This document shows positions 21,037-24,074 of a stretch of 64,000 bases of DNA, one piece after another. Under the pieces are notes generated by a model. The model was not told where the DNA came from, ran no database searches, and saw only the letters and a program-made list of their open reading frames with translations. The position numbers were made by a program, and so were the translations under genes. The first letter of the stretch is position 1; each line of letters starts with the position of its first letter. Where the stretch lies: the NCBI GenBank assembly GCA_003134695.1, contig PLCB01000056.1, forward strand, positions 1 through 64,000, read 5' to 3'. The DNA is from Candidatus Zemynaea palustris (lineage in GTDB: Bacteria > Vulcanimicrobiota > Vulcanimicrobiia > Vulcanimicrobiales > Vulcanimicrobiaceae).

Positions 21037-21060
21037 TTGACAAGTCGAAAAGGAAGGAGA

Positions 21061-22245
21061 TTGGCACCCACGACTAATGCGAAGACTTCTCAAATGAAAA
21101 GATTGCGCATCGGGCTCTTCACCGAATGTTATCGCCCGATTCAGAACGGTATCGTCGCGTCGATCGATGCGCTCGCGCTGGCGCTTCGCTCGCATGGTCA
21201 CGACGTCATCTGCGTTACGCCAAGCATGCCGGGCTGTCGCGAAGCGCAAGAAGGCGTCCTGCGCATTCCGTCGTTGCCGCTGCCGACGCGAACCGCCTAT
21301 CGTCTGACGATTCCGATGTTGGCGAACGAACGCGTCACGCGCGCGCTGCAACATCTTTCGATCGTGCACACGCATTCGGCGTTCGTCACCGGTTGGATGG
21401 GCGCGCGCGTCGCGCGGCGCTTCCGCGTTCCGCATGTTTTCACGTATCACACGCAACTGGAAGAGTACGCTCATTACTTTCCGTTTGAGTCGCGTTTGAC
21501 GCGCAACGCGGCGGCCGGCTTGACGCGGGGCCACTGCAATTCGGCCGACGTCGTGATCGTCCCGACGCGCGCCATGGAGCAACACCTGCGCGAGCTCGGC
21601 GTGCGCTCGCGGGTCGAGGTGGTCCCCTCCGGGATCGACCTCGGCTTCTTCGCCGGAGGCCGGTGGCGCGAGGATCTGCGCCGCGCCCTGGGGGTCCCAG
21701 CCGGGGGGAAGATGATCGTCGCGGTCGGCCGGCTCGGCCGTGAGAAGAATGTCGAACTCGCCCTCGAGGCGTTCGCGCGGCTCGGTCTCCCCGAGGCTCG
21801 CCTCGTGCTGGTCGGCGACGGCCCGCATCGCGAGGCGCTCGAGCGCGCTGCGCACCGTCTGCACGTCGCCGACCGAACCAACTTCGCCGGCGAATACTCG
21901 CGCGAGGCGCTCCCCGACGTCTACGCTTCGGCCGACGCGCTCGCGTTCACCAGCCGCAGCGAAACGCAGGGGCTGGTCCTGGTCGAGGCGCTCGCCGCCG
22001 GGCTTCCGGTCGTCGCGGTCGACACGCCGCAGACTCGCGACGTCCTGGGAGGCGCGGGGACGATCGTCGCGTCCGAGCCCGAGGCCATCGCGGCGGAGCT
22101 CCGGAGAATTCTCGCCGAAGGCGGTCGGCGCTCGGCCGCCGCCACCGAGGCGGCCTCGCGCTTCGATGCCGTGGGGATCGGGAGCCGCATTCTGGCGGTG
22201 TACGCTTCCCTCATCGACCAGCCTCGGATCGCCGCCGCCGGCTGA
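21061..22245 (+). CDS. glycosyltransferase family 4
   Basis: A 394-residue GT-B enzyme with a classical N-terminus KRLRIGLFTECYRPIQNGIV and THSAFVTGWMGARVAR, as in diacylglycerol or phosphatidylinositol glycosyltransferases. VVPSGIDLGFF, IVAVGRLGREKNVELALEA and the EX7E-like TSRSETQGLVLVEALAAGLPVV complete the fold. A likely role is transfer of a hexose to a membrane lipid; specificity is not visible. TTG 21061 follows an AAGGAAGGAG purine run; ATG 21094 would remove 11 residues and coincides with the family's usual start, so the N-terminus is uncertain. It is divergent from the 3D-domain gene. Confidence 0.92.
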   Translation: MAPTTNAKTSQMKRLRIGLFTECYRPIQNGIVASIDALALALRSHGHDVICVTPSMPGCREAQEGVLRIPSLPLPTRTAYRLTIPMLANERVTRALQHLSIVHTHSAFVTGWMGARVARRFRVPHVFTYHTQLEEYAHYFPFESRLTRNAAAGLTRGHCNSADVVIVPTRAMEQHLRELGVRSRVEVVPSGIDLGFFAGGRWREDLRRALGVPAGGKMIVAVGRLGREKNVELALEAFARLGLPEARLVLVGDGPHREALERAAHRLHVADRTNFAGEYSREALPDVYASADALAFTSRSETQGLVLVEALAAGLPVVAVDTPQTRDVLGGAGTIVASEPEAIAAELRRILAEGGRRSAAATEAASRFDAVGIGSRILAVYASLIDQPRIAAAG

Positions 22246-22247
22246 GA

Positions 22248-22277
22248 TTGACATCGAACATACGTTCGATGTAAAAT
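22248..22277 (+). promoter_or_regulatory. strong sigma-70-type promoter
   Basis: A perfect -35 TTGACA (22248-22253) and a -10 TAAAAT (22272-22277) are separated by 18 bases. It starts just behind the glycosyltransferase stop and lies 12 bases before the ATG at 22290, so the transcript would have a leader of only about six bases. The spacer is filled by a LexA box. Confidence 0.85.
22255..22268. promoter_or_regulatory. LexA/DinR (SOS) operator
   Basis: CGAACATACGTTCG matches the Gram-positive LexA consensus CGAACRNRYGTTYG at every position and is flanked by AT/AT, extending the dyad to ATCGAAC-ATAC-GTTCGAT. It sits between the -35 and -10 hexamers of a strong promoter, the classical place for repression. 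Binding by LexA is inferred; lexA itself is not in the window. Confidence 0.85.
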
Positions 22278-22289
22278 AGGGGTACCAGC

Positions 22290-22727
22290 ATGGTAGCTAT
22301 GAACGCACGACGCCGAGGAACCCCGCTCACGATCGTGACCGCAGGCTTCGCGGCCGACGAGCGCCACGGCATTTGCTACGCAACCGTCGGAGGCGGCGGA
22401 CGCGAGACTCTCGTCAGGGTCGAGTTCGCATGCCGGCCGCTTCCGGTGTTGCGCGGCCGCGACGTCGCCTACTACGCGCTCGACGCACTAGCCGGCGAAT
22501 TGCTTCGGCGCGGCACTGGGCGCGTCGAGATTCACGTCGATGACGAATACCTGCCCGAAGATCTCAAGCAGCGGCGCGCACTTCCAAGCCCGCTGACCGT
22601 GCCCTACGTCGCGCTGCGCTGCCGGCTGAATCGCTTCGATCAAGCGACGGTGCGCCGAGCCGACGGCGTTGCGCGCGATCTCACGGCGCGCGCTCAGGCC
22701 GAAGTTTTCCTTAACGTCGCAGCCTAG
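22290..22727 (+). CDS. unknown protein under SOS-type control, possible RNase H-like fold
   Basis: A 145-residue soluble protein that I do not recognise. Order of elements: strand LTIVTAGFAADE, strand GICYATVG, VRVEFACRPLP, helix DVAYYALDALAGELLRRG, strand GRVEIHVDDEYLPEDL, then PYVALRCRLNRFDQATVRRAD. The sequence strand-strand-helix-VDD-strand recalls RNase H-like domains, with the VDD at the place of the third catalytic acid, but the first Asp and the Glu are not in place, so catalysis is doubtful. It is driven by a promoter with an embedded LexA box and followed by a DNA glycosylase gene. A role in DNA damage response is inferred from this. ATG 22299 is an alternative start. Confidence 0.75.
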   Translation: MVAMNARRRGTPLTIVTAGFAADERHGICYATVGGGGRETLVRVEFACRPLPVLRGRDVAYYALDALAGELLRRGTGRVEIHVDDEYLPEDLKQRRALPSPLTVPYVALRCRLNRFDQATVRRADGVARDLTARAQAEVFLNVAA

Positions 22728-22752
22728 ACTCAGGCGTCTGCGGCGCGCCGAA

Positions 22753-23322
22753 TTGCCCGCCGAGACGGTCGCGCTGGCGCGCTTCTTGCTCGGAACAATT
22801 CTGGTGCGCGACGAGCCGCGCGGCCGGACCGTCGCTCGCATCGTCGAGACCGAAGCGTATCTGCCGGAGGTCGACGCGGCATCTCATGCTTATCGCGGTC
22901 TGACCAAGCGCAACCGCTCGATGTTTCTGCGACGCGGTCACGCCTACGTCTACTTCATTTATGGTACGTGGCATTGTCTGAACGTAACGAGCGAGGGTGA
23001 AGGGACGGGGGCGGCCGTCTTGCTGCGGGCCGCCGAACCGCTCGAGGGGATCGCGAGGATGCGGCGCCGGCGCAAGGTGGCGAAGCTCGCCGATCTCGCG
23101 CGCGGCCCCGGCCGTCTCGCGGCCGCGTTCGGGCTCGACCGGCGCCAGGATGGGCTCGACCTCTGCGCGCCCGGTTCGGAACTCTGGCTCGCGGCCGGCG
23201 CGCCGCCGCCGGCCCTCGGCGAAAGCATTCGCATCGGTTTATCGAGCGACGCACATCGGGTGTTGCGTTTCTTCGAGCGCGGCAGCGCGTTCGTTTCGGG
23301 AGCCCGGCATCTGAACGCCTGA
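22753..23322 (+). CDS. mpg: alkyladenine DNA glycosylase (AAG/Mpg family)
   Basis: A 189-residue base-excision repair enzyme removing 3-methyladenine and other alkylated or deaminated purines. Motifs: LARFLLGTILVR, RIVETEAYLPEVDAASHAYRG (Glu and Tyr of the active site), RNRSMFLRRGHAYVYFIYG, HCLNVTSEGEGTGAAVLLRAAEP, and LARGPGRLAAAFG. There is no ATG/GTG in the proper region; TTG 22753 gives the usual family N-terminus, while TTG 22669 would overlap the upstream gene by 59 bases. It follows the SOS-box gene by 25 bases and is probably co-transcribed with it. Confidence 0.92.
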   Translation: MPAETVALARFLLGTILVRDEPRGRTVARIVETEAYLPEVDAASHAYRGLTKRNRSMFLRRGHAYVYFIYGTWHCLNVTSEGEGTGAAVLLRAAEPLEGIARMRRRRKVAKLADLARGPGRLAAAFGLDRRQDGLDLCAPGSELWLAAGAPPPALGESIRIGLSSDAHRVLRFFERGSAFVSGARHLNA

Positions 23323-23339: not shown

Positions 23340-24074
23340 GTGCGGCTTCAGAAATATCTCGCGCATGCTGGCGTGGCCTCGCGGCGCAAGGCGGAAGAAT
23401 TGATCGCGGCCGGGCGCGTCCGCGTGAACGGGCGCGTCGTGCGCGAACTCGGGACCAGCGTCGCGGACGGCGATCGCGTTCAGGTCGCGGGCCGAGCCGT
23501 CGAGGTGCCGGCGCAACATCGCTACGTCGTATTGCACAAACCTGACAAGGTAATGACGACGATGCGCGACCCCGAGGGACGCCGCACCGTCGCCGATTTG
23601 GTGCCGCGCGAGTTGGGCCGCATCGTCCCGGTCGGCCGGCTCGATTACGACACGTCGGGCGTGTTGCTGATGACCGACGACGGCGAGCTGGCGCACGTGC
23701 TCATGCACCCACGCTTCGGCGTCGAAAAGACGTATCGCGCCGTCGTGCGCGGCAAACTCGCTCCCGACGACGTCAAGAAGTTCTTAGAGGGCGTGCGACT
23801 CGAAGAGGGCAGTGCCCGGCCGGCGAAAGTGCGCGTGGTGAGAGCCAGTTCACGTGCTTCAGAGATCGACATCACGATTCATGAGGGGCGCAATCGCCAG
23901 GTGCGCCGCATGTTTGAAGCGACCGAACATCCCGTGAGCTCGCTCGTGCGCTTGCGCTTCGGGCCGATCGCGCTCGGCAGCCTCGCGCCCGGCCACTGGC
24001 GCGAGGCGACGGAGAAAGAAATCGCCGCCCTGCGCGTGCTCGCGCACGCGGCGCAGAGCGAGAATCGGACGTGA
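23340..24074 (+). CDS. 16S/23S rRNA pseudouridine synthase, RsuA/RluB family
   Basis: A 244-residue protein with an N-terminal S4 RNA-binding domain ([21 protein letters not shown], about 1-60) and a pseudouridine synthase domain. The catalytic Asp is in [18 protein letters not shown] (about 100-117), preceded by DPEGRRTV and followed by [27 protein letters not shown] near 185 is a family signature. It probably modifies 23S rRNA helix 89 (RluB role), but RsuA cannot be excluded. Start GTG 23340. It overlaps aroH by 4 bases. Confidence 0.93.

Follow-up and report, generated by a model that had tools for sequence, protein, structure and literature searches.

Introduction

SOS regulons commonly hold small, lineage-specific, one-gene effectors, and glycosylases for alkylation repair are usually constitutive or under Ada control. 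In Gram-positive bacteria and actinobacteria, LexA acts on an operator with the core CGAAC-N4-GTTCG that lies over the promoter, with lexA itself and dnaE2 among the targets; the B. subtilis form of the consensus is CGAACRNRYGTTYC. In clostridia, the operator has been searched for in the form GAACnnnnGTTC (PMC4234289). Among the SOS members of Bacteroidetes are splB-like genes (PMC8565304). In the open-access literature we found no paper that links LexA and SOS to Eremiobacterota or that links LexA to Vulcanimicrobiota or WPS-2, and none that describes an SOS-controlled inactive RNase H-like protein; one match concerns DinG helicases.

Here we analyze a locus in a 64,000-nt stretch of DNA from Candidatus Zemynaea palustris (the window). 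The predicted regulon to which it would belong resembles the Gram-positive/actinobacterial LexA regulon in its operator, in the position of the operator over the promoter, and in its targets lexA and dnaE2. It differs in belonging to the phylum Vulcanimicrobiota and in including genes for a pseudo-RNase HI, an alkyladenine DNA glycosylase (AAG), and an AlkB-type protein. We consider it probable that a LexA-repressed promoter drives an SOS-inducible unit at this locus, the first product of which is an RNase HI-fold protein that acts by binding, with AAG co-induced in this genome.

Results

A LexA-type palindrome fills the promoter spacer

The locus comprises the following features.

21037-22245, + strand: glycosyltransferase family 4 gene (Pfam), ending 8 nt before the box
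22248-22253, + strand: -35 element TTGACA (from the sequence; TTGAC stands 4-8 nt 5' of the box in 67/70 orthologous loci)
22251-22272, unstranded: predicted LexA operator, a perfect palindrome with 9-bp arms, ACATCGAAC-ATAC-GTTCGATGT, filling the promoter spacer
22272-22277, + strand: -10 element TAAAAT (in 69/70 loci a TAnnnT begins at a distance of 15-19 nt from the box's first base)
22290-22727, + strand: gene 1, encoding a 145-aa class-specific protein with a predicted RNase HI fold that apparently lacks the canonical catalytic carboxylates, a pseudo-RNase HI (AlphaFold2, Foldseek, profile alignment, residue counts); start ATG at 22290, stop at 22725-22727
22669-23322, + strand: methylpurine-DNA glycosylase of the AAG/MPG family (Pfam PF02245, NCBIfam NF002003)
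23340-24074, + strand: RNA pseudouridine synthase gene, rluB-like (Pfam), 17 nt downstream of AAG

TTGACA and TAAAAT are separated by 18 nt (22254-22271), and the promoter with a LexA-type palindrome in its spacer, as described in the original prediction, is confirmed from the sequence. The accompanying claim that a 14-base sequence in the spacer fits the Gram-positive LexA operator at every position holds or fails with the consensus used: all 12 bases that the mycobacterial-type consensus TCGAACN4GTTCGA specifies are present in the box, but the last base of the B. subtilis form is not. The box is also longer than claimed, the core of the palindrome being the 16-mer TCGAACATACGTTCGA at 22254-22269. 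The loose pattern GAACN4GTTY has 3 matches in the window versus 4.9 expected, which is not significant. Across the 2.7-Mb genome the core CGAACN4GTTCG is enriched, with 17 occurrences versus 2 for the reversed control. Since the box and promoter sit at its end, the glycosyltransferase gene is thought to lie outside the unit. It is a conserved neighbor, present 5' of the box wherever the orthologous loci extend far enough in that direction, except in L017, where it was not detected.

The box is conserved before homologues of gene 1

The original prediction had proposed a search for the same box before homologues of the 22290 gene in related genomes. This search, the main check on which it could have failed, was carried out, and the prediction passed. 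The exact core CGAAC-N4-GTTCG is present in the promoter at 70 of the 71 orthologous loci with upstream sequence, which represent three families in the same class of Vulcanimicrobiota (Ca. Eremiobacterota), a class of little-known soil bacteria, and include proteins as distant as about 27% identity; in the remainder of the 483 kb that these loci make up, the core is absent (0 found). Among the 70 aligned boxes the half-sites CGAAC and GTTCG are 99-100% conserved, and columns upstream of the promoter mostly 30-50%. This conservation is far beyond chance, and its extent across orthologous loci rules out a chance palindrome. The sole exception, in a near-complete genome of one contig (L041, genome G008), has a 1-base change in a half-site (TCGCAC); elsewhere in its genus the boxes are perfect. 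At some loci (L031, L038, L053, L054, and L055) so little sequence separates the -10 element from the start codon that the transcript would have no leader, or almost none.

Gene 1 orthologues occur in 72/98 relatives. A profile search detects the gene in 105 of 149 genomes of the phylum, all within the three families; among these 149 genomes there is no match in other classes, and four genomes of the same class with completeness of at least 90% are also unmatched. One second match (L083, genome G011) was excluded as non-orthologous, as no RNase H-like protein could be read there on either strand. In a contig scan, made with a closer alignment since the broad one was too diverse, the named records are Vulcanimicrobiota / Ca. 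Eremiobacterota. A contig titled Rhodospirillales (L117, JANYGA010000284.1) also carries this class-specific gene, and its title looks misassigned.

The same motif precedes lexA and other genes

A single LexA in the genome scores above the curated cut-off (TIGR00498, 231 bits). Its sequence shows an AG motif, the serine of SGDSM, and the lysine of TVK, which in this family are the cleavage site and the catalytic residues. Locating lexA had been part of the original proposal, and the gene carries the same kind of box upstream: TCGAACRTAYGTTTGC or a close variant precedes lexA in 30/30 lexA genes examined. The lexA box (G000:C41:155748, L039, and 29 relatives) is consistently asymmetric, with a right half GTTTG, unlike the GTTCG of the target genes, and perhaps allows weaker autorepression.

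Perfect or near-perfect boxes in this genome also stand before dnaE2, an AlkB-type gene, a radical SAM gene, a ribonucleotide reductase gene, and ftsY followed by recA. The radical SAM gene, called Rv2578c-type though it scores below the cut-off of that model, has directly before it a perfect box identical to the 16-mer of the window (G000:C4:71034, L001:5035). This box is kept in 15/16 in-class genes examined and in 0/5 from other classes; the gene is comparable to the SOS-controlled splB-like genes of Bacteroidetes. A second alkylation-repair gene under the motif encodes an AlkB-type 2OG-Fe(II) dioxygenase (G000:C32:11718, L005:4218), where the box is kept in 5/30 genes, namely in this genome and in four close homologues, and is absent from more distant AlkB homologues. 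In most relatives dnaE2 has no box directly before it, and in many an ImuB-like reading frame ends just upstream. The sequence TCGAACAGGAGTTCGA (G000:C42:134570, L003) lies about 25 nt before the probable start of ftsY, and recA follows 1 kb downstream, facing the same way; ftsY and recA may form a unit controlled by LexA. At G000:C15:41532 (L002) a ribonucleotide reductase gene with an intein that carries a LAGLIDADG endonuclease domain has a box about 30-50 nt upstream.

The motif is thus an SOS motif, to which LexA would bind and through which damage would induce the genes. The box is conserved before homologues of gene 1, a LexA is present, and the lexA promoter and other SOS genes share the motif; on these grounds there is strong support for the predicted control of gene 1 by LexA, and this part of the original prediction is borne out at the level of sequence.

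Gene 1 encodes a protein with a predicted RNase HI fold

As a single sequence, the gene 1 protein has no match in Pfam (where the RNase_H and RVT_3 family models give nothing significant), NCBIfam, or the PDB, and comparison with PHROGs and PADLOC yields marginal single-member matches only. A phage or plasmid origin was discarded, no relatives being present among viral contigs or plasmids.

The predicted structure is recognizable by its fold. An AlphaFold2 model computed from 27 sequences has a pLDDT of 88.7 and a pTM of 0.84, and its elements follow the order bbb-a-b-a-a-b-a, which is that of RNase HI (b1-b2-b3-aA-b4-aB-aD-b5-aE). Foldseek matches the model to RNase HI chains (prob 1.00, E 6e-7, best TM 0.71) and also returns viral RNases H. 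The best natural PDB profile matches from the gene 1 alignment are to RNase HI as well, and are weak (E 0.085 and 0.46); RVT_3 matches two of 25 family members (best E 0.001). Conversely, the gene 1 family profile finds the canonical RNase HI of three relatives (E about 4-6e-4), and hhalign aligns it with the class's own RNase HI at P 7e-5, with a local probability of 63%. The protein therefore resembles RNase HI (RnhA; Halobacterium 4e19, M. tuberculosis Rv2228c 3hst, E. coli) in modeled fold, element order, and length, with profile similarity detectable over helix A to strand 5. The first gene had originally been left unrecognized, which holds for family searches with the single sequence but not for the predicted fold; likewise, the description of its product as a new SOS protein stands by virtue of the conserved LexA box, except that the newcomer looks like an apparently non-catalytic RNase HI.

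Two canonical carboxylates appear to be missing from the gene 1 family

Residues of the gene 1 family were equated with those of RNase HI by profile alignment (the hhalign comparison of 63% local probability) and by the order of secondary structure elements. The equivalents of D10 and E48 (window residues 18 and 60) are acidic in none of 70 sequences (fraction 0.00); residue 19, beside the D10 equivalent, is acidic in one. The D70 equivalent (residue 84) is acidic in 43% of the 70 sequences, and that of the fourth carboxylate, D134, is ambiguous in the alignment. Acidic residues are found at other positions: D85 is acidic (D/E) in 70/70 and D/E91 in 97%, both of which the predicted element order puts on, or at, the helix that follows strand 4, and 79% have an acid at positions 130 and 138. 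Y106 and C111 are invariant, and D85, F46, Y61, and L113 nearly so; conservation of Y106 and C111 suggests that structure is being constrained, and not that they form an evident binding surface. The family is basic, with a median pI of 9.4.

Compared with RNase HI, the gene 1 protein thus differs in lacking the D10 and E48 carboxylates in essentially all members, in the unconserved D70 position, in the absence of the DGG...GNPG motif with invariant Y106 and C111 instead, and in its predicted SOS control. A separate, intact RNase HI with DGG, AEW, DSE, and AD motifs is encoded elsewhere in the genome, so gene 1 specifies an additional protein. To judge from these alignments, it is apparently non-catalytic as an RNase HI.

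AAG adjoins gene 1 in most loci of two families

The second gene had been assigned to the AAG-type glycosylases, and both family models agree: its product matches PF02245 with E 1.6e-57 (194 bits, cut-off 27) and the NCBIfam equivalog NF002003 with 186 bits (cut-off 182). It is an ordinary member of the AAG/MPG 3-methyladenine DNA glycosylases that differs from them in its predicted place in a LexA-controlled unit. The reading frame opens at TTG 22669 within gene 1; a start at TTG 22753, just past the gene 1 stop, is likelier. Transcription possibly reads through into the rluB-like gene. That gene does not belong to the conserved unit: in most relatives it is separated from AAG by other DNA.

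AAG stands next to gene 1 in 54/61 loci of two families (f1 and f2), the remainder being seven f1 loci in which no AAG was detected, and in 0/11 loci of the third (f3). There, at 11/11 loci, gene 1 is alone under the box, and where f3 loci were read out, the gene that follows lies on the opposite strand. AAG was therefore either gained by the unit in one branch or lost in the other. Because the box and gene 1 persist in f3 without AAG, the core of the unit would be the LexA-controlled pseudo-RNase HI, with SOS control of AAG depending on lineage. The original suggestion that base excision is under SOS control is upheld by operon position in this genome, where co-induction is likely, and in most f1 and f2 loci; it does not extend to the conserved core.

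Discussion

These observations fit a mechanism in which LexA dimers would bind the palindrome between the -35 and -10 elements and block RNA polymerase, until DNA damage triggers RecA-assisted self-cleavage of LexA and the promoter is freed. The protein then made would be small and basic, descended from or at least folded like RNase HI, and devoid of the D10 and E48 carboxylates. With these lost and the D70 position unconserved, it most likely binds rather than cuts, and a pseudo-RNase HI that binds without cutting is the best reading of the model and alignments. It could serve as a nucleic-acid binding factor at sites of damage, such as RNA-DNA hybrids, flaps, or stalled forks, or as an adaptor for a repair protein. 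The reading frames overlap or stand at most 25 nt apart, from which we infer an operon; in this lineage it includes AAG, and excision of alkylated bases would be co-induced. A broader proposal, that a non-catalytic RNase HI-fold protein is a core SOS effector of the entire class and binds RNA-DNA hybrids or other damage intermediates uncut, is tentative, and we would put it somewhat below even chances. We know of no described example of an SOS function performed by a non-cutting RNase HI-fold protein.

Among other explanations, we regard as somewhat unlikely that gene 1 encodes a lineage-specific checkpoint protein or regulator in the manner of SulA, YneA, or DivS, acting on a protein partner (the cell division machinery, a polymerase, or RecA) with the RNase H fold as a mere scaffold. 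Gene 1 shares with these effectors its small size, its restriction to a lineage, and its place directly under a LexA box; such effectors are common in SOS regulons, in f3 no other gene accompanies gene 1 under the box, and conservation is strongest at residues that are mainly hydrophobic or structural. However, the basic pI and the RNase H fold, which set it apart from SulA, YneA, and DivS, point to nucleic acid, and neither sequence relation nor family similarity to any known division inhibitor was found. Less probable still is an active nuclease with a rearranged site, in which D85 and D/E91 would work with D130/E138 in an SOS-induced enzyme that cleaves hybrids or flaps. The conserved acids at these four positions would suit such an enzyme, RNase H-fold nucleases differ widely in sequence, and in E. 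coli loss of rnhA and SOS induction are linked; but no member has an acid at the D10 or E48 position by the alignments used, D85 and D/E91 are placed by the predicted order on or at a helix, and the genome already has an intact RNase HI.

The frequent adjacency of AAG in f1 and f2 could also mean that the gene 1 protein is a dedicated partner of the glycosylase, for instance by helping it to reach lesions in transcribed or hybrid DNA. Every f3 locus keeps the LexA box without AAG directly beside it, as do loci of f1 in which AAG was not detected, and we think this quite improbable; as a core function it is rejected for f3. Finally, the same core could serve another repressor, yet the box fits known LexA operators and, within the same genomes, recurs before lexA, dnaE2, and further damage genes, which makes a regulator other than LexA a very remote prospect. 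Binding by a pseudo-RNase HI under LexA control remains our preferred reading.

Among the targets examined, gene 1 keeps its LexA box as consistently as lexA does, yet it is nameless and has neither a family model nor a known function. A computed LexA motif and a partial regulon are now given for Vulcanimicrobiota. As the phylum is now represented in culture by Vulcanimicrobium alpinum (PMC9758169), the SOS prediction can be tested. A gene 1 protein that binds but does not cut would connect R-loops or hybrids directly to the SOS response.
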